IMG/VR virus record: IMGVR_UViG_3300048930_000428
Span: 1 to 31,842 of that record
DNA: 31,842 nucleotides
From: a virus
Strand: one strand, 5' to 3'
The notes under the pieces: model-generated
Told to the model about the DNA's origin: nothing
Database searches by the model: none
The model's input: the letters and a program-made list of their open reading frames with translations, nothing else
Shown here: piece after piece, positions 1-31,286 of the stretch
How positions within the stretch are numbered: position 1 is the stretch's first letter
Layout of the letters: every line of letters begins with the position of its first letter
Position numbers and translations under genes: made by a program

Positions 1-41
1 TAGGTGCGCCGGAACGCCCGCACTGCCGCCGTGGTTGCCAT
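1..41 (-). CDS. Start of a truncated gene after the first terminase pair (possible portal)
   Basis: Only the first 13 codons are in the window, reading MATTAAVRAFRRT before the edge. The start is supported by a GGAGG ribosome-binding site at positions 48-52, six bases upstream of the ATG; a second ATG lies one codon earlier. It follows the TerL stop by about 30 bases on the same strand. In many tailed phages the portal gene comes directly after TerL, so a portal is the likely product by position alone. The visible residues do not identify a family. Confidence 0.4.
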   Translation of the reverse strand, partial: MATTAAVRAFRRT

Positions 42-71
42 CATCAGCCTCCGCCATTGGTTTGCCATCGC

Positions 72-1535
72 CTATGCCCGCCATCCAAATGCCGTCACAA
101 TTGCCGACTCGTCCATCCCCTGCCCGCCGCGCGCTGCAGCTAGCGCCAACACCCATGCCCAGTATTTGTCAGCGTGGTACTTGGCATTGCGCTCCGCATC
201 GAAGACGACATTGCGGCTGGGCGTCACCATGCGCTTGATGCTGTGGATCTGATAGGCAATGTCCCGGTCGTTCGGAATAGGCGTCTTGCCTTGCTGGATC
301 AACATCTTGGCGTCGGTGCTCCATAGCAGCTTGCTCTCCGCCGTGAAATTCACGCCTTCGGCCTTGACCGGAAACGCCCGCTCTGTATCCTCGGCCAAGT
401 TTCTCCCCAATCCCGTCTGGTCAATCAAGCCCTTGACTATCGGCAGCCGCTCAAACACATAACGCAAGATCGCCCGCTGCGTCTCGAAGCTGCTCGCGTC
501 CAGGGTCAACGCCATGCGCAGCGGATACGTGCCACTAGGCGACAGTCCTACGGCATAGATCTCGGACGTATTACGGGTGCGCCCCACGTCCACTCCCAAC
601 GCCAAAGCCGCCTCAATCCGTCCGAGCCGGACTTCTTCGGCAACCCGATTCACCGCTTCCCGCAGTTCCCCATCACCGTCGCCGCGAATCTCTGCCAGTT
701 CGCACCATACGTTGCCTGCTTGCGCCGCCGCAATCTCCTCCCAGGTAATCCATGCTGTGCTTTCGTCGACGAAGACGCACTCATACTCCTGCTCAAAGTC
801 TTCGAGTGGCAGGTTGGCAAAGATGGCCTTGATGCGATCTTTGCCAAACAGGTCTACACGTTCCGCCGTGGCCAGCGTTGGTGCGAGTTGGCGCGCCTCA
901 CGCACGTTGGTGCAGAACGCCTGCACTTCCCACCATGGCGTGCGCTTGCGCGAGTAGCCTGGATACTGGCGGAAGCTCTCCGTCGCTACTTCCCAGAAGC
1001 GCCCACTGGCCCCCATCGGGCTAGAGGCCATCCGCAGCCGCCGATTGCCCTTGCTAATCATGGGCAGGGCTGCGGTGTAGATGATCACATCGTCGCGGAC
1101 ATGGGCGAACTCGTCTAGATAGACGTTCATCTGTGCCTTGCCACGCGGAGCCGTCGCTGGCAGGCTAATCAAGCGTGCACCGTTGGCGAACTCAATCTCA
1201 GTGCGATTGTCTGTCACCAACGCAGGGCGCATCACCTTAGGCAAGGCACCAATCACGTTCTTGGCGTAGCGGATCTTCTCTTTGGCCTCATCCAGATTGA
1301 TGCTCACAAAGACGCTACCCGTGCCGTTCAGGATGCCATCGGCAACCGCCTCGGCTGCACTCAGCCAGGACCAGGCAATCTGGCGGCTCTTGACCTCGTT
1401 GCGAAAAACGCTGTCGTCTTGCAGGTGGGCCAGTTGGAAATGCTCCCAGCGTGCCCCGTCATATCCGGTCGCCGCTGGGAGGTCGAGATTGTCAACTAGG
1501 AACTGGCATCGCTGCGTCTTGGCGGCCCATGTCAT
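72..1535 (-). CDS. Terminase large subunit, first copy (TerL1)
   Basis: This 487-residue protein looks like a complete phage DNA-packaging motor. Visible motifs are a Walker A-like KSRQIAWSW (49-57), a Walker B VYLDE with acidic residues D141 and E142, and the coupling-type motif MASSP (169-173). The C-terminal RNase H-like nuclease has candidate metal ligands D316 (GVDVGRT), D372 (LIDQTG) and D456. The style resembles the Mu gp28/Terminase_6 group. Its ATG overlaps the stop of the preceding small-subunit gene by four bases, so the pair is translationally coupled. It is not a duplicate of the other TerL at 7940-9457, because the ATPase motifs differ (KSRQIAWSW versus KARQLGLSW). Nothing looks broken. 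Confidence 0.88.
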   Translation of the reverse strand: MTWAAKTQRCQFLVDNLDLPAATGYDGARWEHFQLAHLQDDSVFRNEVKSRQIAWSWLSAAEAVADGILNGTGSVFVSINLDEAKEKIRYAKNVIGALPKVMRPALVTDNRTEIEFANGARLISLPATAPRGKAQMNVYLDEFAHVRDDVIIYTAALPMISKGNRRLRMASSPMGASGRFWEVATESFRQYPGYSRKRTPWWEVQAFCTNVREARQLAPTLATAERVDLFGKDRIKAIFANLPLEDFEQEYECVFVDESTAWITWEEIAAAQAGNVWCELAEIRGDGDGELREAVNRVAEEVRLGRIEAALALGVDVGRTRNTSEIYAVGLSPSGTYPLRMALTLDASSFETQRAILRYVFERLPIVKGLIDQTGLGRNLAEDTERAFPVKAEGVNFTAESKLLWSTDAKMLIQQGKTPIPNDRDIAYQIHSIKRMVTPSRNVVFDAERNAKYHADKYWAWVLALAAARGGQGMDESAIVTAFGWRA

Positions 1536-2068
1536 TCGTCATCGTCGAACATTGCTGCTGTCTCAGCGGCCTGCTGCCGGCGTCGTTCCTGTTCGGCCTT
1601 CCACTCTTCGACGGTCCATTGCACCGTGTGCTGTGGTTCCTCTTCCGAGCCGCCTCGCTCCAGAAGGCCATGCACCTTTGCGATGATTTCCCGCGCGGCA
1701 ACGGGATCATGGAACTCGACATTCACGCCCCAGCGGGTCGGCTTAATGCTCTTGATGAGATGCCCCTTGCCATCGGCAAGCAGCCTGGCTACATCCACCA
1801 CCGGATTCATAGCGGCATCCACGGTGAAATACTCGCTGTACTCCGCTCTGGCCTGTTCCGCAAACAGCGCCAGCACTTCGCCGCCGGTCATTGCCGATTC
1901 AGCGAAGTGCTGTTCGATGGCTTTGGCAATCTCGGGATGGCGCATGTTCTCGTAGCCACGCTGATATGCGCCCGCGTCCCCATACCCGGCACGCCGTGCC
2001 GCCTCGGTCGCGTTGCGACATCGAATGTATTCGATGACAAACGCCTGCTGTTTGCCGGTCAACGCCAT
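1532..2068 (-). CDS. Terminase small subunit, first copy (TerS1)
   Basis: This 178-residue protein begins with the usual TerS opening: a short helix with KQQAFVIEY, then NATEAARRAGYGD, which is the DNA-binding helix-turn-helix of the Terminase_2 family. The middle is the oligomerisation region, and the tail is charged and ends in MFDDDE. TerS recognises phage DNA and hands it to TerL, which begins inside its stop codon. The other small subunit at 9412-10002 has the same opening pattern but a quite different body, including an extra basic stretch. The two look like family members from different phages and not recent copies. Confidence 0.85.
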   Translation of the reverse strand: MALTGKQQAFVIEYIRCRNATEAARRAGYGDAGAYQRGYENMRHPEIAKAIEQHFAESAMTGGEVLALFAEQARAEYSEYFTVDAAMNPVVDVARLLADGKGHLIKSIKPTRWGVNVEFHDPVAAREIIAKVHGLLERGGSEEEPQHTVQWTVEEWKAEQERRRQQAAETAAMFDDDE

Positions 2069-2084
2069 GGATCAGATCCTGGTT

Positions 2085-2438
2085 CTACGCCTTCACCTTG
2101 ACCACGCGGCCCAAGACGCCCACGCTCACATTGCCGGACAGGTTGAGGTAGATGGCCCCATCGTCTGTGCCATCCCACCCGTTGCCAGCCTCCCAAGCCA
2201 ACCCAAACCCTGTGCGGCTGCTGTTGAGGGTTACGCTAGGAAACGTCTTTGTGCCGACCTTGAGCACGCATGTGACCGTGGTCGTCGGGTCGGTCAGGAA
2301 GAAGGCGATGTCCTCAACCCGCCACTTCCAGCCGGACCCCGCGGCGGCGGCCAACGCCGTGCCATCCCCCGAGGTCGCACGCGTGGCGAGGATCTCGGTG
2401 TAATCCTGTCGAATTGTTCGTGTCTGAACTGAGCTCAT
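2085..2438 (-). CDS. Small beta-rich phage protein, possible decoration or appendage protein
   Basis: This 117-residue protein starts at an ATG behind a strong GAGAGGGGGGA ribosome-binding site. It has no membrane segment. The C-terminal two-thirds alternates short hydrophobic strands with glycine and threonine turns, as in virion surface and head-tail proteins (for example AIYLNLSGNVSVGVLG near the end). It lies 16 bases upstream of TerS1. I do not recognise a family. Its position and composition suggest a structural role, which is inference. Confidence 0.65.
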   Translation of the reverse strand: MSSVQTRTIRQDYTEILATRATSGDGTALAAAAGSGWKWRVEDIAFFLTDPTTTVTCVLKVGTKTFPSVTLNSSRTGFGLAWEAGNGWDGTDDGAIYLNLSGNVSVGVLGRVVKVKA

Positions 2439-2460
2439 CTCATCCCCCCTCTCACGTTAT

Positions 2461-2479
2461 CCACACACGGTCTGTGTGG
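2461..2479. repeat. Inverted repeat between genes (CCACACA / TGTGTGG)
   Basis: Two perfect 7-base arms (2461-2467 and 2473-2479) flank a 5-base loop in the gap between the genes ending at 2507 and starting at 2438 on the minus strand. No run of T follows on the minus strand, so a classical intrinsic terminator is unlikely. It may be an mRNA processing or stability hairpin. Confidence 0.5.
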
Positions 2480-2506
2480 AAATAACTCCCAATATCGGCT
2501 CGCAGC

Positions 2507-2686
2507 CTATTTGGTCTTACGCTTGCCTGCCGTGTACTCGGCATCGCTCACGCCGTGCAACTCGCAGACCATTTGCGCCAACGCCTTAGTTTTGGCCTTG
2601 TTGACCCGTGTGGCTGAAAAGCCCCGTACCCGCAGCCATGCCTCTGCTGCCGCTTTGGTCGGCAATGTGACTGCTCTACTCGCCAT
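2507..2686 (-). CDS. Small hypothetical phage protein (59 aa)
   Basis: An ATG at 2686 opens a 59-residue frame overlapping the end of the preceding gene by 11 bases. The protein is basic and helical. It starts MASRAVTLPTKAAAEAWLRV, includes RVNKAKTKALAQMVCELHGV and ends in a lysine-rich tail, KRKTK. It has no recognisable catalytic motif. The alternating AWL-RVRG and AQMVCELHG helices are consistent with a small nucleic-acid-binding or connector protein, but this is inference. Translational coupling to the upstream gene supports it being real. Confidence 0.6.
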   Translation of the reverse strand: MASRAVTLPTKAAAEAWLRVRGFSATRVNKAKTKALAQMVCELHGVSDAEYTAGKRKTK

Positions 2687-2903
2687 CTAGCACCTCCACC
2701 ACCAAATAGCGGGCATCTGCGGCTAATGTGTCTAGCTGTGCATCGCTGCACCAGACCCGCACCATGCACGTCCCTTCGGTCGGCACTTGCCCCAGGCACG
2801 ACCAACCGCCGGTCCAAACGCCGTTGTCGTCGTACTGCAACTGCTCTAGACTCAGGTCAGGATTAGCGTTGACCACCGGAGCCACAATGATTGCCGATGC
2901 CAT
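2676..2903 (-). CDS. Small hypothetical phage protein (75 aa)
   Basis: This 75-residue acidic protein starts at an ATG preceded by GGGGAC. It carries two cysteines, in the segments SCLGQ and TCMVRVWC, and ends in the strand YLVVEVLDGE. It follows the LamG/CBM-like gene by eight bases and overlaps the next gene, so it lies in the same transcript. No family is recognised. Its place among appendage-like genes suggests a small virion or assembly component. Confidence 0.6.
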   Translation of the reverse strand: MASAIIVAPVVNANPDLSLEQLQYDDNGVWTGGWSCLGQVPTEGTCMVRVWCSDAQLDTLAADARYLVVEVLDGE

Positions 2904-2911
2904 AGCGTCCC

Positions 2912-3835
2912 CTAACTCGCCACGCAGCTAAACGCCGCTAGAGTGTTGCCGGAGTAGGTGTTGAAATAGCCGTGCAGGGTATTGGAAACAATGCCTGCAT
3001 CCGAGATCGTCTGATCTGTCCCGACCTGCGCGCCGTTGTAAAACAGTTGATAGGTGTTGCTTGAGGCCGTGCGCCGAATCTCAATCGCCGCCCCTGCCAC
3101 GTAGGTTGCCGCTGCGCTGATTAGCTCCGTGTACGTGCCTGCTACGCATTTGGTCAGGCGTGCCGTGGTGCCGTCGTGACTCGCAATCACAAAATTAGCC
3201 GGTGACGCTGCGCTGTCCAGGTTGGCAACCACCCCGGCCCGTGTCGCAGATACCACCGTCACGTTGGCTTTGGTCGTGGCGTGCGTTAGCCCATAGTCGA
3301 GCGTACCAAACAGGCTGGTGAGCGTTAGCGGTTTGAGTGACACATCGTCCGCCCGTACCTCTGCGCCAATCGTGGTCGAGTTAGTGACGACTCGCAGCGT
3401 ATCGCTGCCGGATGCCGCCCTAGCGGTGACAAACGCCTGTGCCCAGGTCGCAGATGTGGTAGTCGCCGTTACAGTGTTGCCGGTTGCCAGCCCACACGAC
3501 GCCGACGTGCTGACATTGACCCGCCGCAGCCACGCCGTCAGCAAATACCAGCCAGTGCTGGGCAGTGTGACGGACTGCTGTCCCCGCCCTACCGACGCTG
3601 CGCCATTGACGACCGACAACGCCTGTGCGCCGCTGCCCCCGGTGCGCTCATCGGCCACACCGTCCAACACGCCGCTGACTGCGGCGCTCCAACCAGTCGG
3701 TGGATCGCCAGTCTCCATGTTGCCGTTGGTGGCAATCTCTGCGCCCAGCACCGGCACAGGCACGCCAACGCCACTCCCCAGCCCCACCTGTGCGCCCAGC
3801 TTGCGCCCGAGCTTAAAGTCAAACCCTATACCCAT
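2912..3835 (-). CDS. Appendage-like protein with CBM-like and LamG-like domains
   Basis: This 307-residue protein has a short N-terminal stretch. A carbohydrate-binding-type module follows (about 30-165) with the familiar opening NGNMETGDPPTGW. The C-terminal region (about 170-307) resembles a concanavalin/LamG jelly roll, with LFYNGAQVG and a final strand near LAAFSCVAS. Such domains are common in phage tail fibres and other virion surface proteins that bind host glycans. It lies after the glycosyltransferase-like gene and before TerS1. The binding role is inferred from domain style, and no catalytic residues are evident. Confidence 0.7.
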   Translation of the reverse strand: MGIGFDFKLGRKLGAQVGLGSGVGVPVPVLGAEIATNGNMETGDPPTGWSAAVSGVLDGVADERTGGSGAQALSVVNGAASVGRGQQSVTLPSTGWYLLTAWLRRVNVSTSASCGLATGNTVTATTTSATWAQAFVTARAASGSDTLRVVTNSTTIGAEVRADDVSLKPLTLTSLFGTLDYGLTHATTKANVTVVSATRAGVVANLDSAASPANFVIASHDGTTARLTKCVAGTYTELISAAATYVAGAAIEIRRTASSNTYQLFYNGAQVGTDQTISDAGIVSNTLHGYFNTYSGNTLAAFSCVAS

Positions 3836-3882
3836 GTCACACCCGCCTAGCGATATTTGGCATTATCACGCTGACAGCCATG

Positions 3883-4323
3883 CTACACGTCCCGGCTGAT
3901 CAACGTGACATGCACGTCCATGTCGTCGGCAGCGGCATCCCCCCCAGATTTGACCAGCACCCGCAGCGTCTGGCCTGCCGCTAGCGGCAACTGCCCCATG
4001 CCTACCCCCAAATAGTCGGTGTCGCGAAAGGCCGAATCGTGCGAGACGTTGCCAAACTGGTAGTAGCGGGTGGCTCCCGCAGCCTGCACCGCCCCGCCCC
4101 GCACCTCCCCGATCACCGTAGTGCCGTCCGCGGCCAGAATTTGCAGCGCCATCTGGCGATTGCCGGCGGTGGCAGACGAGACGAGTTTGACGAAGACCCA
4201 CATCACCTGCCACTCGGTATCAGCTGGGACCACAAAATCCTTGGAAATGTCGTTGGCGACGACGTTGCTCTCGGTGCTAACCCGCCAGACTTCACTGGTT
4301 TTTGCCTCTGGAAACCGTGCCAT
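3883..4323 (-). CDS. Small beta-sandwich-like virion protein
   Basis: This 146-residue protein starts at an ATG behind GGGGAG. It is made of regular beta-type segments (WQVMWVFVKLVSS, RQMALQILAADG, QTLRVLVKSGGD, MDVHVTLISRDV) and ends in a strand, as small head-decoration, collar or fibre-tip proteins often do. It has no membrane segment or enzyme motif. It lies 12 bases after the glycosyltransferase-like gene's stop. No specific family is recognised, and the structural role is inferred. Confidence 0.6.
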   Translation of the reverse strand: MARFPEAKTSEVWRVSTESNVVANDISKDFVVPADTEWQVMWVFVKLVSSATAGNRQMALQILAADGTTVIGEVRGGAVQAAGATRYYQFGNVSHDSAFRDTDYLGVGMGQLPLAAGQTLRVLVKSGGDAAADDMDVHVTLISRDV

Positions 4324-4335
4324 ATTGCTCCCCTT

Positions 4336-5049
4336 CTACCCTTCTAAGACTGCGGGCGTCCATAGGTCCCGCGGCTGTTCGACCACCAGGGTCGGATCGA
4401 CCCACAACGTGCGTCCCTGCGCCCGCAACTGGCGGCAGAGGTCCAGCACCGCCCATTCCTCCATGTGGATCTGCGGCGCGTCCTCGCCATGCACCAGGAA
4501 GACCGTGCCAAACGAGTCCACCGGGAACGGGCTGTTCGGCGTGTAAACCGCATGGTAGGGCGGATAGCTGCTGAACCGCTGTCCCCCCCGCCGGAAGGCC
4601 CAGATGTCGTAGAACACCCGCCGCCCCGGTGCGATCTCCAGCACAGGCCAGGCCGCCAGCGGGCACAGCCCCCCTTCGGCCCGGGCCACCATGCGCGGCA
4701 CCAGGTCATGCGGGCTGCGGATGTCCGACTCATGCACCAGCAGATAGTCCGCCCCGTGCGCACAGCGGAAATACGTATTGGCCGTCGCACTCAGACGGCG
4801 GAGGCGGCTGCGCCCATCGCGCCCGGTAATGCCCGTGTCCTGCTCCACAATGCGCACCACATCCCGATAGCCGGCGATCAGGTCCCAGAGGGCCGCCCCG
4901 GTGCCGTCGTCGCTGTCACCGACCACCCACAGCCAGCGCAGGGCCTGATAACTGTCCCCCTTCGCCAGCAGGTGCTCGACCCGGTCGACCAACTGGCGCT
5001 GGGTATCGTTGCGCCACATGGAGCAGAGCAGGACAGACGGCTGGTGCAT
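4336..5049 (-). CDS. Glycosyltransferase-like protein (GT-A fold, Anp1/GT62-like pattern)
   Basis: The start is the ATG at 5049, two bases after the MuF stop and behind GGGGGGAGAG. The frame is open further upstream, but that stretch lies inside MuF. The 237-residue protein begins with a strand and turn (SVLLCSMWRND). It has an ALRWLWVVGDSDDG strand and a DYLLVHESDIRSPHDLVPRM block, where ESD occupies the place of the metal-binding DXD of GT-A enzymes. Later it has RVFYDIWAFRRGG. This order recalls Anp1/GT62-like transferases. A glycosyltransferase between head-assembly and appendage genes is unusual. It could modify virion proteins, phage DNA or host surface glycans; nothing here decides which. 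Confidence 0.6.
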   Translation of the reverse strand: MHQPSVLLCSMWRNDTQRQLVDRVEHLLAKGDSYQALRWLWVVGDSDDGTGAALWDLIAGYRDVVRIVEQDTGITGRDGRSRLRRLSATANTYFRCAHGADYLLVHESDIRSPHDLVPRMVARAEGGLCPLAAWPVLEIAPGRRVFYDIWAFRRGGQRFSSYPPYHAVYTPNSPFPVDSFGTVFLVHGEDAPQIHMEEWAVLDLCRQLRAQGRTLWVDPTLVVEQPRDLWTPAVLEG

Positions 5050-5051
5050 GG

Positions 5052-6161
5052 CTAGACTCTCCCCCCGGCCAGCACCGGCACCGGTGCCGATCCCGGCTGG
5101 GTGCGCACCATGCGCAGCGGTTGGCCCAGCAGTAGATCCGTAAAGCGGTCCACCTGGGCCGGGCCGATCAGGTTGCCCAGCGCCAACCGCTCGCGGCGGA
5201 TCTCGTCGCGCAGCTCGTCCAGGATCGCCTGGCTGTTTTCCGCCAGCACATAACGCAGGCTGCACAGACAGTGCGGATGCAGCGGCGGCATGTACTGGGC
5301 CGGAATGTCATCCTTGGGCCAGGGTCCGGCCCCGGCGGCCACATCGCAGATGTCGGGCCGGGGATGTCGGTGCGACAGGGCCACGCGCACGCCGGTCACA
5401 AACGGATTCATGTTGGCGCTGATGCGCTGGGCCTCCGCGTGTGCCCGGCTGATCTCCGTGCGGGCCAGCCGCATGGCATCATAGGAGGCGTCGCGGCCAT
5501 AGGGTGCGCCCGTGCGTTCCAGCAGCCGCCCCGGCACCAGGAACCGCTCCAGGTCGCGGGCAATATCCGCGGCGCTCCGGCCTGCGGCGATCGACTCCTC
5601 CAGCAGCCGGTCCACCTGCCGCCGCGTCGCCACACTCGACCGCCAGATGCGGTCGCTCAGCCGGTAGCCGTTGGGGTCCACCCAGGTATGTGGCGCGTCG
5701 TAGGTCGCCAGCGGGTTGGGGCGAAACGCCTGTTCCTGCACCAGTTCCCGCGCCGCCGCAAACGGGTCCAGCCGGGCCGTGCGCAGCCGCGCCCATAGAT
5801 CCTCGGGCAGCCGCTTGCGCAGCATGGCCGCGTTCTTCTCTACCGGGATGCGCACCACCGCGGCCAGGGATGTCCACAGCGCCGCCGCATAGGGCGATAG
5901 CGGGATCACCGCCCCGTTGGGCAGCTCGTCCAGCGCCGCCCACTCCTGGCGGCGGTTGAGGCCCAGGAACAGCCGCGTCACACGTTCGCCTGCGGCCTGC
6001 TGGAGACTTGTCAGCGCGGCCCGCGGCACCGTCCCGTCGGCAACGGCGCGGCGCGTCACCTCCCCGGCGATGCTGGTCGCCAGCTCGCCAAAGAGGGCGG
6101 TCATCTGCGCCTCGTTGTCCCGGACGGTAGCCAAAAAGCGGGCCTGGTACGTGCGTGCCAT
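5052..6161 (-). CDS. Phage head morphogenesis protein (MuF / SPP1 gp7 family)
   Basis: This 369-residue protein carries the MuF signature. An R-A-E-I-S-R-A-H segment is followed by LSHRHPRPDICD and then PPLHPHCLCSLRY (H295, C298, C300), a likely metal-binding cluster typical of the family. MuF proteins associate with the portal, are carried in the procapsid and in some phages are ejected with the DNA. The gene sits in the expected order, after the portal and a small coiled-coil gene. It appears complete, with a long helical N-terminal half and a basic C-terminus. No toxin-type C-terminal domain is visible. Confidence 0.82.
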   Translation of the reverse strand: MARTYQARFLATVRDNEAQMTALFGELATSIAGEVTRRAVADGTVPRAALTSLQQAAGERVTRLFLGLNRRQEWAALDELPNGAVIPLSPYAAALWTSLAAVVRIPVEKNAAMLRKRLPEDLWARLRTARLDPFAAARELVQEQAFRPNPLATYDAPHTWVDPNGYRLSDRIWRSSVATRRQVDRLLEESIAAGRSAADIARDLERFLVPGRLLERTGAPYGRDASYDAMRLARTEISRAHAEAQRISANMNPFVTGVRVALSHRHPRPDICDVAAGAGPWPKDDIPAQYMPPLHPHCLCSLRYVLAENSQAILDELRDEIRRERLALGNLIGPAQVDRFTDLLLGQPLRMVRTQPGSAPVPVLAGGRV

Positions 6162-6166
6162 AGAAT

Positions 6167-6409
6167 CTACTTACGGCCCTTCCTGGGCCGGGCTGTGCCA
6201 CTGGCGGGCGGTTCCGGTGTTGCCGGCGGCGGTAGGTGGGTGCGTCCGCCTGAATCTGAAATCACCGGCACCTGGGTGACATAGGTGCTGCGCGCCGGGG
6301 GGTCGTTCGGCAGGAACGAATCTGCCCCCAACGTCTGCACCAGTTCCGCCAGCAGCGCGTTAGTCTGCTTCAACTCTGCCAGGAGCGCCTCAAACTGTCC
6401 CTGGTTCAT
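6167..6409 (-). CDS. Small coiled-coil phage protein between portal and MuF
   Basis: This 80-residue protein has an N-terminal amphipathic coiled coil (FEALLAELKQTNALLAELVQTLG) and a proline-rich, basic tail ending PRKGRK. It overlaps the portal stop by four bases and ends six bases before MuF. It could be a small scaffold, a portal-associated factor or a minor head protein. Position and coiled-coil character are the only evidence, and no family is recognised. Confidence 0.65.
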   Translation of the reverse strand: MNQGQFEALLAELKQTNALLAELVQTLGADSFLPNDPPARSTYVTQVPVISDSGGRTHLPPPATPEPPASGTARPRKGRK

Positions 6410-7956
6410 GCGTCCGTCTCCTCGTCCTCATTGGCCGCGGTGCGCTCCGCCGCGCCCAACTGCCGGTTGAACGTGCCGGTGTCGCCGTCGGGGTAGAGCG
6501 CCGCCTGCCGTTCCGCCGCCTCCTCCTCTGCGGCTTCCACCTCGTCCGCCGGGTTTTCGACCAGGGACAGCAGGCGCAGCGCGGTCTCCCGCTGCAGCAG
6601 ACCGTTGAGCAGGGCCGTCTCGACCAACTTGCGCACCAACTCCCGGTCTTCGGCAATCGCCGCCGGCCATTTGGCCTTGAGTGCGCCGACGATCAGGCGG
6701 GGGTCGGTCAAGGCCCCCACCTGCAGCCGGATCTTGCACAGCCGCACCACCGCCCCGGCCACCTGCCGCTGCCACGCGCCGATGTCCTTCACAAACTGGA
6801 CCATCTGTGTGTCGGAGCTGGCGCGGGCGCTGGACAGTTCATTGCCCCAGATAAACTCGGGGATGCCCGTATGGTCGAGCAAGAGCAGGAAGAGCGTCTT
6901 CAGCGCCTGCTTGGTGTCCTCGGTAAAGCCCGTGGGCGGGGCCACGAATTTGGCGTCCCCGCCCTTGCCGATCAGCATCACCGCGTTGCTGTCCACGTTG
7001 AGCTGGGGCCGCTCCGCGATATTGCCGTCCTTGTCGGTGTACTCGTCCACCTGGGCCGGGTCGTTGGCGTTGATGACCTCGCTGATGTCTTCCATCCCCA
7101 CAAAGGCCAGGATGGGGTTGCCCAGGAGCTTCGCCCCGTCCAGCATCTTGAAGAGCACGTCGTCATACTGGTCATAGAGCGGCAGGAGCTGCTCGTGGAT
7201 GCTGTGCCCGTAGGTCTCATTGCCGGACATGCCGTAGGCGAAATGCACCACCGGGATGCGGCCAATCAGGTTCTGGTACTCGAAGCTCTCGGCGCGTTCG
7301 CCCTGCTTGATCGTCACCGTGCGCCCGTCGGCCCGGTATTCGTCCACGATGGCGTAGCCGTCCAGTTTGGTCGTCACCAGGACCGCCAGCATCCGGCGAT
7401 AGTCCAGCGGGTCGCGCTTGACCTCGACCGTGTCTGGGCTGGGCACGGAGAGCGTGCCGTCGGGGTTGACGATGACCCACTGGTCGCCCAGTCCCAGTGC
7501 GTCCCGATAGATGGACATGAGCAGGCTGGCGGTCGTATCCCGGTCCCAGTTCTCCTCGTCCTCGTCGGCGTCCAGCCCGGCGTCCAGCAGCCCCCGCACA
7601 AACTCGGTCAGGAAGTTATTGGTGTAGTCGCGCCGATCTTCGGGCAGTTCGTTGTCGTCGTCGCACAAGGCGATCTCGATGCCCTCGCCCAGCACCCAGG
7701 CGGCAATCACCCGTTCGATGCGGGTGGCAAAGAGCGCCCCCAGCTTGTAGCCGTCGGCCTTGCCCCGGCGCAGCCGGTCCCAGAACTCATAGTTCGGGAT
7801 CGTCTCGTCGATGGTCTTGGCGCGTGTGCGGGAGCGGTACAGGCCCATCTGGGCATCGCCGACCACATAGCGGCCAATCAGCTCGCGCACGGGCACCGTG
7901 GCCGCGGGGCGGCGCGTGGGGCGCACTTGGGCGCGATTCCTAGCGGCGACTGCCAT
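6406..7956 (-). CDS. Portal protein (SPP1 Gp6-like)
   Basis: The start is the ATG at 7956 behind CGGAGG, 17 bases inside the end of the TerL gene. The frame extends further upstream but without a ribosome-binding site. The 516-residue product matches SPP1 Gp6-like portals in length and pattern. It has an N-terminal YRSRTRAKTIDETIPN segment, an acidic insertion rich in DEDEEN, a VDEYRADGR beta-region and the late helix SSARASSDTQMVQFVKDIGA typical of the portal stem. The tail is very acidic and ends in NEDEETDA. The portal forms the ring through which the terminase pumps DNA. It belongs to the packaging module at 7.9-10.0 kb. Confidence 0.83.
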   Translation of the reverse strand: MAVAARNRAQVRPTRRPAATVPVRELIGRYVVGDAQMGLYRSRTRAKTIDETIPNYEFWDRLRRGKADGYKLGALFATRIERVIAAWVLGEGIEIALCDDDNELPEDRRDYTNNFLTEFVRGLLDAGLDADEDEENWDRDTTASLLMSIYRDALGLGDQWVIVNPDGTLSVPSPDTVEVKRDPLDYRRMLAVLVTTKLDGYAIVDEYRADGRTVTIKQGERAESFEYQNLIGRIPVVHFAYGMSGNETYGHSIHEQLLPLYDQYDDVLFKMLDGAKLLGNPILAFVGMEDISEVINANDPAQVDEYTDKDGNIAERPQLNVDSNAVMLIGKGGDAKFVAPPTGFTEDTKQALKTLFLLLLDHTGIPEFIWGNELSSARASSDTQMVQFVKDIGAWQRQVAGAVVRLCKIRLQVGALTDPRLIVGALKAKWPAAIAEDRELVRKLVETALLNGLLQRETALRLLSLVENPADEVEAAEEEAAERQAALYPDGDTGTFNRQLGAAERTAANEDEETDA

Positions 7957-9457
7957 AGAGTCCTCCGGTACGAGTCTTCTGAGCCGCCGGGCGCTGGGCG
8001 TTGGCCTGTTGGCGACTGCCGTAGAGAGAGGCGGCGCGCGGCGCAATCTGCACCGTGGACGCAGCCTGGAGTGACCGGGCAATATTCGCCAGCGCATAGC
8101 TGTCGGCGCGGTCGTCGTGTTCGCCGTCCGGGGCCAACAGCGTCGACCCCTCAATGCTCGCCAACTGGGTGTAGCCTGCGAAGCTGTGCAGGATCGTGTT
8201 GCCGTCCCGGAACGTCTCCGCCATGCTGTTGTAGAGCAATGTCTTGCCCAGCCGGTTGGACAACCAGCCCGGCTTGTCGTCGTCGCCCTTGAGCACGGTC
8301 AGCCGCGTGTGCTCCTCCCACCAGAGCAGCACCGCATGACCGTGGTTGTTGCGCTCCGACAGCAGCGCCGCATGGTTGTACCAGCGGCCCACCTGGTCGG
8401 CGTATTCGGCCAGCGTCGACGGCTCAAACTTGCCCGCCAGCGCCGCACACTCCTCGCCGGTGACGACATCCATCACACACAGGGCGCTGTCGTCGCTGGT
8501 CGGGTTGCCCTCTGCCGGGTCCGCCCCGATCACATAGCGGCGGCCTGGCTGGGGCAGCACATAGACCTCGAGACCGGGCAGCGCCGGGCCGGGGTGGCTG
8601 TCCAGCGGCTCCATCTCCACGTAGCATTGCTCGATCCATGGGGCGGGAATGCGCTTGTCCAGCGTGCGCGGGGCCAGGGCCTCCGTGTCGGTCGCCGGGT
8701 ATTCCTGGTGCAGATCGTCCAGCGCTCCGGTGCGCGCATACACGTCGGCTCGCTGCGCCACATAGAACGCCTCGTCGCGTTCGGGCCGGGCGTGCCAGGG
8801 CAGGAACACCGGCACCCATTCCGTATGGCCGCGCTTTGCCCCACGGTAGATGCGCTTGAACGGGCTTTGGGGCTTGCTCTTGTCGACCGTGGAAATCAGG
8901 ATGAGCTGCCCGCCCGCGTCCACGGTCGGCTTGACCGCATTCAGCAGGGCGTCCAGGTCCTGGATAAAATCGGCTTCGTCGACCAACACAATCGAGCCGG
9001 TGTAGGATCGCCCGCCCGTGGTCGGGAACGCCTTGGCGCTACTGCCGTTGGAGAGCGCCCAGGTATGCTTGTCGTCGGCCTGGATGGCCCGCGCCTGCAT
9101 CCAACTGGGCAGCCGCTGGTGGATGCCCTTGAGCCGGTTGTCGAGCAGCTCCACGGCCTCTTCGTCGCGCTTGGAGAAGATCAGAATGGTGGCCTCCTTG
9201 CGGAAGAGCATCTGCCAGAGCACATAGCAGAGCGTGAGCCACGACAGCCCCAACTGGCGCGCCTTGAGGATGATGAGCTGGTGGGTGTCCCGCAGCGTCT
9301 CCAGGGTCTCTACCTGGGCCGGCCATAGGGCAAAGGGCAGCCACTCGCGGGTGGTCGCGTTGTAGATCTGGACGTAGGTCTCGATCCAGTATTCAATCGA
9401 CTGGCTGCTTTTCAGCCATTCGATGTGTTCGCGCCGTTCTTCCGAGTTGCCAGCCAT
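7940..9457 (-). CDS. Terminase large subunit, second copy (TerL2)
   Basis: This 505-residue packaging ATPase/nuclease has a Walker A-like KARQLGLSW (65-73), Walker B SIVLVDEAD (D160, E161) and coupling motif LILIST (185-190). The nuclease domain begins at VIGADPAEG (D313) and has further acidic ligands near LLWWEEHT and DDRADSYALA. The gene overlaps the end of TerS2 by 46 bases and its own end overlaps the portal start, which is the classic packaging order. Sequence motifs differ clearly from TerL1 at 72-1535. Nothing indicates inactivation. Confidence 0.9.
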   Translation of the reverse strand: MAGNSEERREHIEWLKSSQSIEYWIETYVQIYNATTREWLPFALWPAQVETLETLRDTHQLIILKARQLGLSWLTLCYVLWQMLFRKEATILIFSKRDEEAVELLDNRLKGIHQRLPSWMQARAIQADDKHTWALSNGSSAKAFPTTGGRSYTGSIVLVDEADFIQDLDALLNAVKPTVDAGGQLILISTVDKSKPQSPFKRIYRGAKRGHTEWVPVFLPWHARPERDEAFYVAQRADVYARTGALDDLHQEYPATDTEALAPRTLDKRIPAPWIEQCYVEMEPLDSHPGPALPGLEVYVLPQPGRRYVIGADPAEGNPTSDDSALCVMDVVTGEECAALAGKFEPSTLAEYADQVGRWYNHAALLSERNNHGHAVLLWWEEHTRLTVLKGDDDKPGWLSNRLGKTLLYNSMAETFRDGNTILHSFAGYTQLASIEGSTLLAPDGEHDDRADSYALANIARSLQAASTVQIAPRAASLYGSRQQANAQRPAAQKTRTGGLYGSRR

Positions 9458-10002
9458 GCCTGTAGTTCTTGCTCCGCCTGCGCCAGTTCGTCGGCGCTCA
9501 GGTTCGGCACCTCGCGGTGCGTCACATCCAGTTTGTCGGACACCAATCCGTGATGCTTCGCCAGCAGCGCCTTGGCTGCGTAGGCGTCATACAGTTCCAC
9601 CTCGACCAAGGTCTCAGTGACTTCCGTCGGCGGCTCATCCTCATCGCCCGGCACCACCGTCTTGCGGGTCCGGGTCTTGAGCTTCTTGATGTGGTGCAGC
9701 TTTCTGGCCTGCTGCATGGCCTTGAAATCCCACTGCGGCGTGCCGTCGTCGGCAATCTGGAGATAGTCCCCCATGTCGCCGCGTGCCTGGTCGCTGATCC
9801 GCATCAACACTTCGTCCGCCGACATTGCCGTTGCCTGGAGTCGCTGCCGAATCGCTTCGGCGACCTCAGGTTTTCTCAGGGTCTCCCAGCCGGTCGAATA
9901 CGCGCTCCGTTCCGAGTAACCGGCGGCAATGGCCGCCTGCGTTGCGTTGTAGCTTTGGAGGTAGTGTTCGACAAACAACCTCTGTTTGGCTGATAGTCCC
10001 AC
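9412..10002 (-). CDS. Terminase small subunit, second copy (TerS2)
   Basis: This 196-residue Terminase_2-type small subunit opens MGLSAKQRLFVEHYLQ, followed by the helix-turn-helix NATQAAIAAGYSER. The middle has a basic helix (KLHHIKKLKTRTRK) and an acidic stretch (GDEDEPPTE). The C-terminal helix is LAQAEQELQAWLA. It binds the packaging initiation site and works with the overlapping TerL2. The body differs from TerS1 although the N-terminal pattern is shared. It follows the lysis genes directly. Confidence 0.86.
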   Translation of the reverse strand: MGLSAKQRLFVEHYLQSYNATQAAIAAGYSERSAYSTGWETLRKPEVAEAIRQRLQATAMSADEVLMRISDQARGDMGDYLQIADDGTPQWDFKAMQQARKLHHIKKLKTRTRKTVVPGDEDEPPTEVTETLVEVELYDAYAAKALLAKHHGLVSDKLDVTHREVPNLSADELAQAEQELQAWLATRKNGANTSNG

Positions 10003-10008
10003 AGGCCA

Positions 10009-10152
10009 TCACATCCCATGCGGCAGTGCCGCCAGCCAGACCAGCCCGAATGCCAGCCCGATCCACCAGCCGCGCCGCCGGGCATCCCCCCACGCGGCCA
10101 GGGTCAACAGTCCCAGTGCGTAGAGGACAAATGTCCCGGACGGCGCAAGCAT
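10009..10152 (-). CDS. Micro membrane protein in the lysis region (47 aa)
   Basis: An ATG at 10152 opens a 47-residue frame six bases before TerS2. It encodes two hydrophobic helices (FVLYALGLLTLAAW and WWIGLAFGLVWLAALP) joined by a basic turn, DARRRG. This is the shape of a very small hairpin holin or an accessory lysis protein. Its start lies four bases after the preceding stop, consistent with coupling. The function is inferred only from topology and its place after the endolysin and LL-H-like genes. Confidence 0.6.
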   Translation of the reverse strand: MLAPSGTFVLYALGLLTLAAWGDARRRGWWIGLAFGLVWLAALPHGM

Positions 10153-10155
10153 CCG

Positions 10156-10677
10156 TCATTCCACCAGTTCAAGCGAGTCGGCGCGCACGACCCCATCCGG
10201 CCCGATCTTGAGCCGCCAGGTCTTGCCCCGGAGGCTGTACTGCGGCCCGTACTCGGTGCGGAAGCCGTACAGGTGATCCGGCTCCACCTCCGTGCCGCTC
10301 ACGGCGTCGGCCTGGCCCGTGGCATCCACGGCCCCCTCCACCATCGGTTTGAGCCAGTAGACCGCGCCCTCGATCAGCGACAGGATCACATCGTCGTCTA
10401 GTTCGGGGTAGAGCGTCTCCACCTGGTCAAAGACCCAATCAAGGCGGCCATCCTTGTCGAGCTTGCCCGTGCGCCAGAGCTGTTCCGCCCCGGCCACCAG
10501 GTCGCGGATCACGGGAGCCGCGGCTGCGGCGAGCTGCGCCACGTCGGCGACGCTCTCGATCTGGGCCGGTGCCCCCTCCAGCTTCACCAGCCGGGGGTGA
10601 CGCATCACCAGCCAGGCCAACCCAAAGACCAGAGCACAGACGATCAGCAGGCCAAAGATTACGTCCGGGGATTCCAT
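10156..10677 (-). CDS. LL-H-like phage holin or lysis-associated membrane protein
   Basis: The start is taken as the ATG at 10677, which shares a base with the endolysin stop (TGATG). A GTG one codon upstream is possible. The 173-residue protein has one N-terminal membrane segment (about 7-25) and a helical soluble part. Its GAEQLWRTGKLDKDGRLDWV...LIEGAVYWL pattern resembles LL-H family holins. The C-terminal region is beta-like and longer than in ordinary members. It probably acts in the inner membrane together with the adjacent endolysin. A second holin candidate lies upstream at 12713-12946. Confidence 0.6.
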   Translation of the reverse strand: MESPDVIFGLLIVCALVFGLAWLVMRHPRLVKLEGAPAQIESVADVAQLAAAAAPVIRDLVAGAEQLWRTGKLDKDGRLDWVFDQVETLYPELDDDVILSLIEGAVYWLKPMVEGAVDATGQADAVSGTEVEPDHLYGFRTEYGPQYSLRGKTWRLKIGPDGVVRADSLELVE

Positions 10678-12713
10678 CACTTGCCTCCCAATTTGGCGTA
10701 GGCGGCTTGCAGCCGCGGGGTGTAGATGTGTTCTAGCCCGACCCCGTTATAGAGCCGGGTGATCGTGTCCCAGTCGCGGGCGTTGATGGCGGCGATTAGC
10801 TTGGGCCGCGCCAGGATGTAGTTATACATGGCTGCGAGCTGCGCCGCCTCGCTGCGCTGCATGGCGGCGAACATCGCCAACGGCGAGCCGTAGCCTAGAC
10901 TCTGCCAGTGGAACCCCATCACCTGGCCCAGCCCCATCGATGTACAGCGAATGGCCGCATTGGCGTCGATCATCCGTGCCACCTGAAACGCGCCCCACTC
11001 CCCGTCCTGCCCAGCGTGATAGGCGATCCACTCGGCGCGGGCGTCGGGCCGGTACCAGGCTTCCAGGAGGTTATCCCGGTTGATCTTGAAATAGGGTTGG
11101 AATGCGTTGGGATTGCCGTAGGTCGCGGACAGGAGCAAGTGCGCCTCCAGCCGGATCTTCAGCCGTCCTTCCCAAAACCCGCTTCCGCCCGATTCCACGG
11201 CGATCAGGGCCTCGAGGACCAATGGGTCGAGAGGGGTGGCCTGTGCCTGCGGTGGATTGCTCCCCAGTTCCGGTGCAGGCACAGGCGGGGGCGGGTCCAG
11301 CGGGGTTGGCGATGGGGCAGGTGGATGGGCTGGCGGCGCTGGTTCGTTCGCCGCCAGCCGCTGAAAATGCAGGACCGTCGACGTGTGGATGCCTGCGTTG
11401 CCGTTGGCCCCCATGCCGATGCCGGTCACGCGCTCCGACGGCTGCCCGTCGTCGACGCGGATAGAAAACTCGTTGAGGCTGGCGGACATGGGATAGTTGC
11501 CGCTGTACGGTTCGCCGGGCTTCGCTTCGGTGACAATCCGGCTGGAACCGCCCGGCCATTCGACCAGCAGCGGCACGCCGGGCACGCGGTTGCCCGCCTC
11601 GTCCTTGACATCCACATAGATGTGATGCCGTCCCTGGCTCTCCGCTTCGTCCAGCCAGCGGCCCATCGTCACCACCCAGCGAGGATTGGTGGGCGTCTCC
11701 ATCTTGACGCCGCGCTCCCCCAGCCGCATGTCCCAGATGCGCGGGCGGGAGACATTCTGCCGGTCGACCTCCAGCTTGGGCAGATGCACCGTGTGGACCG
11801 GCTGCGCCTGGGGCTGTGGGGCTGTGGCCTGCACGTCCGGGCCGGGATAGGCCCGCGCCGCGTGGGCAAACTCGCGGATCACCTCCGGCTTGGATTCCAT
11901 GCCGTACTCGTCATAGTCAGGCCAGCGGTAGAAGATCACCGCGTGGATCAACTGCCCGCCGCTGGCGTTCCAACGGCTGATCTCGCGCAGCATTTCGGGC
12001 ATCAGCCCGACGGCCTGCCACGGGCCGTTGCCGTTGGTCTCGGTCAGATAGACAGGGCGATTGCGTAGGCCCGGCGCAATGACCCCCAAATAGTCCTGGT
12101 AGACCGGGAACTCGAAGCGATGGCGATCAAACGGGCGATCCATGGTCGCCATCGACGTGACCAGCTTGGGGTCATAACCGTGGGTGTAGGCGTGCAGGCT
12201 GGAACCGTCAAACTGGTCGCCCAGCGCCGCCAGCACATCCCGCCAGTAGATCAACCAGTCGCCGGTGGGATTGCCGTCGTAGCGGAACTCCGCATTCCAC
12301 GGCCCCGGTGCGGCGATCAGCACCTCGTCCTGTTCGTGCCCGGCCACTTGGCGGATGGCCGTGCGGCAGACCGCATAACAGACCGCATAGTCCTGAGGGT
12401 GGATGGCCTGCCCATTGGGCCATTCACGGGGCAGGTTGGGTTCGTTGCCGATCACCCACCGGGAGCAGCCCCGGCTATTCCGCACATAGTCTGCGCAGCG
12501 CCTGGCAAAGTCCACATAGGCCCCACGCGGCGGGATGGTGCCGGTGGAGCCGTAGCCCCAGTTGAGGCGGGCGATCCAGTTGACCTTGAGTGCGATCTGG
12601 GTGTAGTCGGGCGCGGTCGGATTTTCAGACAGCGCGACCGTATCCACGCACCAGCCCCCGGCGGGGACCATGATCGCCCCCTCCCTGTCGTGCAAACCTG
12701 CCAGCAAGGCCAT
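10677..12713 (-). CDS. Modular endolysin: clan GH-A-like domain plus N-acetylmuramidase domain
   Basis: This 678-residue protein is about three times the length of a simple endolysin. Residues 1-300 look like a clan GH-A glycosidase: WVIGNEPN places the acid/base glutamate at E91, and VYLTETN places the nucleophile at E225. Residues about 330-465 form a beta-rich, Ig-like region. A proline-rich linker follows (about 468-495). Residues 497-678 match the DUF3380 N-acetylmuramidase type, with IAVESGGSGF (E507 as likely catalytic residue) and SMGLGQVMGFHW. It starts at the stop of a holin gene and has no signal peptide, so release probably depends on holins. Two glycosidase-type modules suggest it cuts two polymers, which is inference. 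Confidence 0.8.
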   Translation of the reverse strand: MALLAGLHDREGAIMVPAGGWCVDTVALSENPTAPDYTQIALKVNWIARLNWGYGSTGTIPPRGAYVDFARRCADYVRNSRGCSRWVIGNEPNLPREWPNGQAIHPQDYAVCYAVCRTAIRQVAGHEQDEVLIAAPGPWNAEFRYDGNPTGDWLIYWRDVLAALGDQFDGSSLHAYTHGYDPKLVTSMATMDRPFDRHRFEFPVYQDYLGVIAPGLRNRPVYLTETNGNGPWQAVGLMPEMLREISRWNASGGQLIHAVIFYRWPDYDEYGMESKPEVIREFAHAARAYPGPDVQATAPQPQAQPVHTVHLPKLEVDRQNVSRPRIWDMRLGERGVKMETPTNPRWVVTMGRWLDEAESQGRHHIYVDVKDEAGNRVPGVPLLVEWPGGSSRIVTEAKPGEPYSGNYPMSASLNEFSIRVDDGQPSERVTGIGMGANGNAGIHTSTVLHFQRLAANEPAPPAHPPAPSPTPLDPPPPVPAPELGSNPPQAQATPLDPLVLEALIAVESGGSGFWEGRLKIRLEAHLLLSATYGNPNAFQPYFKINRDNLLEAWYRPDARAEWIAYHAGQDGEWGAFQVARMIDANAAIRCTSMGLGQVMGFHWQSLGYGSPLAMFAAMQRSEAAQLAAMYNYILARPKLIAAINARDWDTITRLYNGVGLEHIYTPRLQAAYAKLGGK

Positions 12714-12946
12714 CAGTTCGCCACCTCCAGCTTCTTGCCGTCGACACTGCGCGGGTCGGCCACCGGCGTCACCAAACGCCGCTGGATGGAAGTGCCGACA
12801 ATGTCGATCAGGGCCATCAGGAGCGTCACGGTGGCCGCCTGTTGGATTTCAGTTAGCGGCCAGAGGTCCATGACGACCAGCCAGAGCACCAAGGCCCGGG
12901 CCACAAACTTGAGCGATTCAATAACTGCTACCGGCTCACGTCCCAT
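12713..12946 (-). CDS. Putative holin (77 aa, two membrane segments)
   Basis: This 77-residue protein has two hydrophobic segments (about 10-30 and 36-54) and a polar C-terminus with RRLVTPVADPRS. This pattern is common among small phage holins, in which an R-x-x-V-T-P motif follows the last helix. Its stop overlaps the endolysin start, and its start lies inside the end of the upstream membrane gene. It is the best holin candidate because it is directly coupled to the endolysin. Confidence 0.7.
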   Translation of the reverse strand: MGREPVAVIESLKFVARALVLWLVVMDLWPLTEIQQAATVTLLMALIDIVGTSIQRRLVTPVADPRSVDGKKLEVAN

Positions 12947-13286
12947 GTCGTTCCTCGCTGATCCGGATAAACCAGAGATACAAGCGTGTCGTCAGCGCCC
13001 GGTGGCTGTTGCGGCTGGCGGCGTAGCCGTCGGCGATCACCAGCGCCGACAGGGCGGCCACCGCCCACCCGGCCCGCTGCAGGGCAATCACCAGCAGCAG
13101 GTTGATGCGCGTCGTCGGCGAATACAGCCAGATGGTCGTAAAGGCCAGCCAGGCCAACGACCCAAACAGAAACATCATCATCAGCCCGGTCAGCCCCCGC
13201 ACCTGCCACCAAATCGCCGCGCTGTAGACCGCGGAAAAACAGAAGGCGGCACCGACCAGGCTGAAAAACCAGACGATAAACTCCAT
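12936..13286 (-). CDS. Three-helix membrane protein of the lysis cassette
   Basis: This 116-residue protein has three clear hydrophobic segments (about 3-27, 31-54 and 62-84), followed by a basic, arginine-rich tail. It starts two bases after the XhlA-like gene and overlaps the holin start by 11 bases. It may be a second holin, an antiholin or another membrane protein of the virion or lysis machinery. Topology and position are the only evidence. Confidence 0.65.
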   Translation of the reverse strand: MEFIVWFFSLVGAAFCFSAVYSAAIWWQVRGLTGLMMMFLFGSLAWLAFTTIWLYSPTTRINLLLVIALQRAGWAVAALSALVIADGYAASRNSHRALTTRLYLWFIRISEERHGT

Positions 13287-13288
13287 GA

Positions 13289-13543
13289 CTATGGCCCCAG
13301 TACCCCAGCGGCAAACAGGCTGCCGGCGGTCGCGATGATCGACACGATTAAAGAGAAGATGGAGATCGCGGTCTGGGGAAACCTGGCGTGCTCAGTCTCG
13401 ACGTTATCGAGCCTCTTGTTAATGTTGGCAATCTCGGACTTGTTGACGGCAGCCTGGGTTTGCAGCAGAGACACCGCCGCCTCAATCTGCCGGACCCGCT
13501 GCCGAATGTCCTCCACTGCGTCGCTTTCCATCTCTTCAATCAT
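13289..13543 (-). CDS. XhlA-like coiled-coil membrane protein
   Basis: I place the start at the ATG at 13543 (MIEEMESDAVEDIR), although the frame is open to 13651. No strong ribosome-binding site distinguishes the candidates, and an ATG at 13531 is an alternative. The 84-residue product has a long amphipathic coiled coil (RVRQIEAAVSLLQTQAAVNK and on to NKRLDNVE), then one C-terminal membrane helix (FSLIVSIIATAGSLFAAGV). This is the build of XhlA-type lysis proteins, which act with a holin. It is the first gene of the lysis and packaging transcript, just downstream of a terminator. Confidence 0.6.
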   Translation of the reverse strand: MIEEMESDAVEDIRQRVRQIEAAVSLLQTQAAVNKSEIANINKRLDNVETEHARFPQTAISIFSLIVSIIATAGSLFAAGVLGP

Positions 13544-13680
13544 GTCTGCGCCTGTGCGGCCTATCAGCGAGCGAGTTTTGGATAGGCGGGCGTTGTTTTC
13601 AAAACTCTTAGGGTCGCGACCTGACGCGGGTGAATAGAACCGCACGCACAACGCCCAAAGCGCGCGGAGCAGGCCCTATC

Positions 13681-13712
13681 AAAAAGGCGTGCTACCTCGA
13701 GAGTAGCACGCC
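13681..13712 (-). terminator. Intrinsic terminator ending the replication/middle operon
   Basis: Two perfect 10-base arms (GGCGTGCTAC at 13686-13695 and GTAGCACGCC at 13703-13712) enclose a 7-base loop. On the minus strand five Ts follow directly (13681-13685). It lies 27 bases beyond the winged-helix gene and before the lysis genes, so it separates two minus-strand transcripts. A promoter for the lysis and packaging genes must then lie between about 13545 and 13680, or readthrough must be controlled. Confidence 0.88.
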
Positions 13713-13738
13713 CTGGTCAACCAGCGGTTGATTCTGTT

Positions 13739-13945
13739 TTACTTCTCCATCCACTGCCATTTGCCGTCGATCTTCACGAGTGGGAAATCCGCCGCGAGGT
13801 CCAGCATCATCTGGTTCGCCCCCTGTTTCGTCAACTCGGTCATGCGCGCCACGTCCCGCTCACTCAATTTGCTGCCCTGCCAGAGCCACAGCAGCACCCA
13901 GCCGCGGCGGCGAATCGGCGTCCACTCGCGAGTGACGACTGCCAT
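13739..13945 (-). CDS. Small winged-helix DNA-binding protein
   Basis: The start is the ATG at 13945, overlapping the preceding stop (TAATG). The 68-residue protein fits a compact winged helix: GWVLLWLWQG, then LSERDVARMTELTKQGANQMMLDLAADF as the helix-turn-helix part, and a wing strand VKIDGKWQWME at the end. It is the last gene before the terminator at 13681-13712 and directly upstream of the lysis genes. A role in late gene control is possible, but only its position suggests it. Confidence 0.62.
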   Translation of the reverse strand: MAVVTREWTPIRRRGWVLLWLWQGSKLSERDVARMTELTKQGANQMMLDLAADFPLVKIDGKWQWMEK

Positions 13946-14337
13946 TAAGCGGCTACCTCCCACGCTGCCACCGTCCGCACCGGGTCGCAGATGCAGTCCC
14001 CATTGATCGCTCCGCAGCCGGGGCAGATGTGGTCATGGCTGCCCCAGATGAACCAGGGCACGCCGCACGCGTCCAGCAGGTCGGCGGTCGTCAGGTCAAG
14101 GGCAAACGACGCGCCGGGCAGCTCCAACAGCTCGATCATCAAATGCGCCAGGTGACGAGACTCTTCCGGGTCACTACCCACGGGCACGACGGGGATCGCC
14201 GGGGCCGCCTCCCCCACGGCGACCCCTTTGTCCTGGCGACCACCTGTCGCCACGGGATACCAGTAGAGCCGGTGCAGCGCACCGGCACGCTGCGCTTCGT
14301 CCAACACCTTGCGCTGCCAGGTGCGGTTAACGGCCAT
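13945..14337 (-). CDS. Hypothetical protein with C-terminal cysteine cluster
   Basis: This 130-residue protein has an N-terminal basic helix (MAVNRTWQRKVLDEAQRAG), a central hydrophobic helix region (LAHLMIELLELPG) and a C-terminal CPGC-x6-CIC cluster (about C105, C108, C115, C117) that could bind zinc. It is three bases downstream of another zinc-type gene. No family is recognised. The metal site is inferred from cysteine spacing. Confidence 0.6.
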   Translation of the reverse strand: MAVNRTWQRKVLDEAQRAGALHRLYWYPVATGGRQDKGVAVGEAAPAIPVVPVGSDPEESRHLAHLMIELLELPGASFALDLTTADLLDACGVPWFIWGSHDHICPGCGAINGDCICDPVRTVAAWEVAA

Positions 14338-31275: not shown

Positions 31276-31286
31276 CCCCCCCCCCC
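31276..31286. repeat. Homopolymer C11 (G11 on the coding strand)
   Basis: Eleven Cs lie between the stop of the tail-fibre-like gene and the ATG of the next gene. On the coding strand this is an 11-base G run at ribosome-binding distance (four bases) from the start. Such tracts slip easily during replication. Confidence 0.85.

Follow-up and report, generated by a model that had tools for sequence, protein, structure and literature searches.

How did two complete pairs of small and large terminase genes (TerS and TerL) come to stand on one strand of a single phage record? The question was raised by IMGVR_UViG_3300048930_000428 of IMG/VR, the whole of which (31,842 bases) was analysed and is called the window here. 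The completeness of the record is not stated in its source, and the phage genome in the window may be incomplete. The TerS1 side of the late region is termed module 1 and the TerS2 side module 2; L numbers denote comparison loci and G numbers whole records that were scanned. The window was best described as a second head module joined to a first one, and the sequence evidence made a natural origin likely. A little better than an even chance was given to a temperate tailed phage in which a foreign head module (TerS2-TerL2-portal2) was joined behind a resident set of TerS1, TerL1, portal1, MuF1 and cargo genes.

Two terminase pairs on one strand

The four open reading frames (ORFs) were confirmed as two complete pairs in the same orientation: TerS1 at 9412-10002 with TerL1 at 7940-9457, and TerS2 at 1532-2068 with TerL2 at 72-1535, all on the minus strand, as are the other genes of the two modules given below. 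Both small terminases belonged to Terminase_2 (PF03592, 3.5e-28 for TerS1 and 3.8e-22 for TerS2) and to phrog_51, and each stood before its TerL with an overlap, of 46 nt for TerS1/TerL1 and 4 nt for TerS2/TerL2. The large terminases matched PF03237 (1.9e-6 for TerL1 and 5.5e-14 for TerL2), with scores of 28.1 and 52.8 bits, respectively, that both exceeded the cut-off of 22 bits. The nuclease family PF17289 matched TerL2 (2e-5) and had no match in TerL1. The PHROGs assignments agreed for all four proteins.

The conservation of the two motors was judged from alignments of 9 TerL1-type and 12 TerL2-type sequences, the window protein being included in each. The putative catalytic positions were invariant in both, among them D313/E368/D452 of TerL1 and D316/D372/D456 of TerL2; we take the invariant positions to be the Walker A, Walker B and nuclease acids. 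The AlphaFold models were of moderate confidence (pLDDT 77 for TerL1 and 75 for TerL2), and the best PDB match of both was T4 gp17 (3cpe), with E values of 1.5e-29 for TerL1 and 2.3e-12 for TerL2. The match should be read domain by domain, because the whole-chain TM scores to T4 gp17 were low (0.41 for TerL1 and 0.29 for TerL2). The modelled nuclease domains also matched G20c nuclease structures. With the ATPase profile, nuclease residues and predicted domain folds all fitting, both TerLs are classed as T4 gp17-like (Terminase_6N/6C) from sequence and models.

The first-pass annotation had called the pairs unrelated-looking. The description suited the large terminases, which are distant from each other (22% identity over 212 residues, pairwise E 4e-7), and failed for the small ones, which are related (35% over 154 residues). 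Its statement that no recent duplication was involved stood, being borne out by these low identities and by the lack of any common 15-mer, and a recent copy of one pair was ruled out. The annotation had also placed the pairs in one late operon. This amounts to the common strand and the tight packing (97.5% coding across 72-12713 in the gene list of this analysis); promoter- or terminator-like sites over 1-14000 were no commoner than in shuffled sequence. Moreover, the pairs were placed unequally, as a portal and a MuF gene followed TerS1-TerL1 and the contig end cut the gene that followed TerL2.

Module 1, the junction and module 2

In the direction of transcription, the late strand carries a replication O-like gene, a DnaC-like loader, a sigma factor, an endolysin, TerS1, TerL1, an SPP1-type portal and MuF, and then a glycosyltransferase-like (GT-like) gene, o146, o307, o75, o59, o117, TerS2 and TerL2. 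An integrase, a tRNA-Arg and an Erf-like gene lie on the opposite strand. The portal gene of module 1, portal1 (6406-7956, start ATG at 7956), matched PF05133 (3.4e-15) and phrog_64 (1.9e-20), both on the longer frame 6406-8154. The small ORF o80 (6167-6409), which had no relative in the comparison loci, separates it from MuF1 (5052-6161), a minor head or head morphogenesis protein (phrog_1657, 3e-35). The GT-like cargo gene (4336-5049) was named by eye; it had no Pfam or PHROG match and was 24-29% identical to genes in the vicinity of MuF and capsid genes in L013, L015, L103 and the record of L112. The structural-type cargo gene o146 (3883-4323) had a 46% relative (residues 18-123) in L102, located some 5 kb after a tape measure gene. 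For o307 (2912-3835), fibre-like by eye, the C-terminal 86 residues were 44-47% identical to genes behind MuF in L103, L104 and L112, and its remainder had no match in these three loci. The last gene assignable to module 1 was o75 (2676-2903), 52% identical over 75 residues to a gene of L112.

The relatives of module 1 were gathered by several searches. A portal1 search gave L013 and a portal1 alignment search L013-L020, whereas a search with the TerL1 alignment gave 16 loci (L009 and L103-L117, the last four at only 20-22%); TerL1 relatives in L103-L112 were 50-60% identical. TerS1 was 46% identical over 105 residues to a TerS near the portal1 relative of L013, and in L103 and L112 the ORFs before TerL had no PHROG match. 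L103 has a TerL1-type terminase (58%), a portal of the portal1 type, MuF (48%) and a gene with the C-terminus of o307 (47% over 86 residues), and this fibre gene is followed by a hexapeptide acyltransferase, a GT-like gene (29%), a small ORF, a phrog_3219 protein and the major head protein. L112 has a TerL1-type terminase (60%), a portal (29%), MuF (33%), a gene with the C-terminus of o307 and the o75 homologue, and then a phrog_3219 protein, a small ORF and a Phage_capsid_4 protein; the Erf gene of its record is 46% identical to that of the window. In L015 (portal1 type 57%, MuF 56%) and in L132 from a bacterial metagenome-assembled genome (MAG; portal1 type 40%, MuF 31%), the gene order likewise leads to a phrog_3990 major head protein. 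From these matches, the window genes down to o75 are assigned to module 1. Since the relatives continue to a capsid gene, capsid-side genes would be expected after o75, and no capsid gene was found among the 30 window proteins scanned. As a separate observation, this phage group has GT-like, acyltransferase or methyltransferase-like cargo in the head cluster, placed either after MuF and before the capsid gene or beyond the capsid gene (the window, L013, L015, L054, L103 and L112); the cargo names were given by eye, save for the L103 acyltransferase, which is backed by a family match.

Behind o75 come o59 (2507-2686), a small ORF at the module border that was read from the sequence and had no PHROG match, a gap of 68 nt (2439-2506), and o117 (2085-2438), a small ORF directly upstream of TerS2 without Pfam or PHROG match. 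The gap is a likely join site. It contains a hairpin (z -1.5) and one DnaA-box-like 9-mer, present in 25 of 100 shuffles, so neither signal was above chance. No relative of o117 was found by an exact-peptide scan of viral contigs or in the comparison loci, and a paralogy with o146 was rejected, 816 of 1000 shuffles scoring equally well. Only 92 of the 913 nt in the junction stretch 2000-2912 are non-coding; o75, the sole junction ORF with a full-length relative, is intact. The exact border lies somewhere within 2069-2675 and divides blocks with relatives in different phages, L103 and L112 for module 1 and L003-L006, L052 and L044 for module 2. A DNA search of named phages with positions 1-6200 gave no match.

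An ATG 3 nt past the TerL2 stop opens a frame of 22 codons (1-68) that runs to the contig end. When its N-terminus was compared with those of 1093 large ORFs from the comparison loci, the two highest-scoring genes were those that stand immediately after a TerL2 relative in L052 and L044; the corresponding L057 gene shared third place with unrelated genes. The top score was reached by 0 of 300 and 0 of 3000 shuffles. The family has about 500-530 residues, and from position and size the frame is named as the beginning of a probable second portal gene, portal2. TerS and TerL of the module 2 type are also paired in L003-L006, and portals of other families follow in L003 and L004. A lone spare terminase is less likely than the start of a second head module, because the 22 codons resemble the gene that follows TerL2 elsewhere, although in L026 a TerS-TerL2 pair stands without a portal directly behind it in the ORF listing. 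By its sequence, module 2 therefore resembles the opening of a second head module (TerS2, TerL2 and probably portal2) at the place where capsid genes should begin. Capsid-forming satellites of the cf-PICI type carry, within one element, their own integrase or replication genes together with a set for capsid and packaging. Near module 2, which is truncated at the contig end, the scan of 30 proteins showed neither an integrase nor a replication gene.

Exchange of motors and portals and the origin of the join

The surroundings of TerL2 relatives were examined in 80 loci kept from 101 candidate stretches. The gene behind the TerL2 relative was found for 69 of the 80 and fell into 7 groups of at least two members and 9 singletons, with L054 in the portal1 group; portals were confirmed by family search only in L003, L004 and L054. 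Conversely, the portal1 family stood behind four kinds of TerL, namely the TerL1 type (window and L103), that of L013, that of L015, L017 and L019, and the TerL2 type (L054, 46% to TerL2), which were 27% identical to each other at best. A fifth kind, the phrog_38 type of L132, was unmatched by the other TerLs at E 1e-3. As judged from these gene neighbourhoods, TerL and portal families are exchanged often in this phage group, and a genome with two sets could be a short-lived state of such exchange. That phages swap head genes as modules is already known.

Records with two TerLs were rare. PF03237 or phrog_2 was run over the full length of 78 records, the window included, with another 31 viral loci set aside. 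A second TerL turned up in 2 of the 78, the window and L026 (G018). This count is a lower bound, because many of the records are fragmentary and any TerL family outside PF03237 and phrog_2 would be missed. A second match in G013, the record of L021, was rejected as an FtsK/SpoIIIE-like protein matching phrog_2, though it had a weak TerL PHROG match (6.6e-5) too, and the one in G063 shared its reading frame with the TerL of that record. L026 (IMGVR_UViG_3300033518_000555, a record of 17.5 kb, L026:1-17469) resembles the window in having two complete unlike TerS-TerL pairs, one with a TerL of the TerL2 type: TerS (phrog_6299) with TerL (phrog_38), and TerS (phrog_4102) with TerL2 type. Unlike those of the window, its pairs are on opposite strands, no portal directly follows either in the ORF listing, and a ParB-like protein and a phrog_691 partition protein lie nearby, which suggests a phage-plasmid. 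In L008 (9929-12751), a LAGLIDADG-containing insert (PF14528) interrupts a TerL2-type frame of 941 codons past roughly TerL residue 254; to judge from its sequence, the packaging motor there most likely harbours an intein.

For the window, illegitimate recombination, at a gene border or close to one, would have placed the foreign head module where the capsid genes would start. The record would then be contiguous in nature, and the capsid genes beyond the contig end would belong with portal2. TerL2 would be the working motor and TerL1 with portal1 a superseded set on its way out, so that the window would capture an intermediate stage in the TerL/portal reassortment of this phage group. The gene order agrees with this: TerL1, portal1 and MuF1 are arranged as in relatives, the same lineage also contains relatives of o307 and o75, and TerS2 and TerL2 then run into a new gene. 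Of the three readings in the first-pass annotation, a phage carrying another phage's packaging module fitted best, with the amendment that what it carries seems to be the opening part of a head module.

Several points weigh against such a mosaic. The join is known from one assembled record and no independent contig with the junction was found; module 2 covers no more than about 2.1-2.5 kb and lies at a contig end, where assemblers err. The first 4.3 kb have the most atypical composition of the window. The portal2 assignment is based on 22 codons. Furthermore, its family had no PHROG match, with Pfam portal matches below the cut-off for L044 and L057 and none for L052, and its comparison with the portal1 family by hhalign was negative (probability 0.2%). 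Relatives were lacking for o59 and o117, and those of o307 covered its C-terminus only, so these genes may be incomplete. Finally, the cargo order differs from that of relatives, the GT-like gene standing before o307 and o75 in the window, after the fibre gene in L103 and behind the capsid gene in the record of L112.

One rival is a faulty assembly, in which the last 2.1-2.5 kb (o117, TerS2, TerL2 and portal2) would come from another phage of the same sample, wrongly joined to the phage of module 1. This was held to be a possible origin, at well below an even chance. Double-TerL records being rare, even a low rate of chimeras competes. The foreign module is short and at the contig end, and the composition diverges most there; by z-score correlation only 10 of 80 ends from 40 comparison loci were lower, whereas by plain tetranucleotide correlation 27 of the 80 were lower, so that such a shift is nothing unusual for the end of a locus. 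Composition was therefore not decisive as proof of a chimera. On the other side, the join keeps the strand, lies in a tightly packed stretch without a demonstrably broken gene and falls between recognisable functional blocks. In addition, no stretch of at least 15 nt is common to 1-2510 and the rest of the window, although a repeat may be shared with an unseen genome. With all readings of a real join pooled, a real join was considered about twice as probable as an assembled one.

The first-pass annotation had also proposed a fused pair of prophages. Here, a module 1 prophage would have lost its capsid and tail genes, and module 2 would open a neighbouring prophage. Adjacent prophage regions with different terminases are described in the available text on Bacillus pumilus 15.1 (PMC8347963). 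For the window this origin is unlikely: the PHROGs scan of 30 window proteins gave one integrase, one replication set and one endolysin in the incomplete record, and the integrase-side tRNA-Arg had no repeat of at least 12 nt elsewhere in the window. Nothing marks bacterial DNA between MuF and TerS2, because the ORFs there had no Pfam or PHROG match (o59 was compared with PHROGs only).

An insertion with both modules kept, the resident capsid and tail genes continuing past module 2 and two complete sets with two motors in use, was judged very improbable. Both TerLs retain the family-invariant positions and the packaging ORFs are open, as would be expected of two usable sets. Against this, the window sequence ends just past TerL2, and the available literature gave no precedent, the cases found there being split, interrupted, tandem, misannotated or separate-region terminases. 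Slightly less credible still was a phage keeping two motors and two portals on purpose, with packaging startable by either, for example at two recognition sites or in two prohead types, and no evidence was found for the earlier suggestion that the genome could package two DNA types.

Precedents, possible host and meaning of the double set

In the available parts of the literature on two terminases or module exchange, no description was found of a late region with two complete TerS-TerL sets or of a two-module intermediate. The following comparisons concern the available text of the cited papers. Phage genomes with "one or two terminases" are mentioned without detail (PMC5099504), a second TerS was called unheard of and then judged a probable misannotation by the authors (PMC9409062), and a case of one TerS with two TerL ORFs is reported. 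The nearest case was SpaA1/BceA1, in which SpaA1 carries the structural module of another phage, MZTP02 (PMC3398947). As proposed for the window, a foreign set (TerS-TerL-SPP1-type portal-minor head) stands on the backbone of another phage, and the authors infer an in situ recombination event in which only TerL was displaced. A single terminase set is mentioned there, whereas the window has two in an uncultured, incomplete record. The 98-kb region of B. pumilus 15.1 has two different terminases in one stretch like the window, although they lie in a PBSX-like region and a 60-kb prophage region and not in adjoining same-strand head modules. Two TerL annotations are also given for phiPDS1 (PMC10773633), where TerL is split into its two domains on separate coding sequences, and for Enterococcus phage vB_EfS_SE (PMC11510935), where they are parted by a homing endonuclease. 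The two TerLs of Xanthomonas jumbo phages (PMC11273794) are tandem homologues, and no TerS was found.

The host is possibly a member of the Chloroflexota (class Anaerolineae), which is a guess from sequence matches. TerL2-type genes were found on contigs of two Anaerolineales MAGs (47%). At E 1e-30 the TerL2 type occurred in 2 of 396 Anaerolineae genomes, one being the query genome itself, and at E 1e-20 the portal1 family occurred in 4 of 396, L132 among them. A match on a Sphingorhabdus MAG contig speaks against this host: its identity, 66%, was the highest in a bacterial contig, though it covers just 98 residues at the contig end. A first search of genome contigs with TerL2 gave no match, and 7 records of named plasmids matched it, all below 30% identity.

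Further features of the window were recorded. Five iteron-like repeats of 25 nt with a common AAATGTCCGCTTTT core lie at 19520-19643 within the replication O-like gene and are possibly a replication origin. The late-strand sigma factor at 16652-17155 is of the sigma-70 family, with regions 2 and 4. The tRNA-Arg at 22292-22367 (anticodon GCG, CCA encoded) lies 68 nt downstream of the integrase gene. At 31286-31842, the C-terminal portion of a gene that appeared fibre-like by eye is truncated by the right contig end and had no family match.

If the join is real, the replacement of a packaging motor would be visible in the window and L026, with the new set arriving beside the old one and the old one being lost later. 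In a phage group that reassorts both TerL and portal often, which TerL pairs with which portal and capsid would then become testable.

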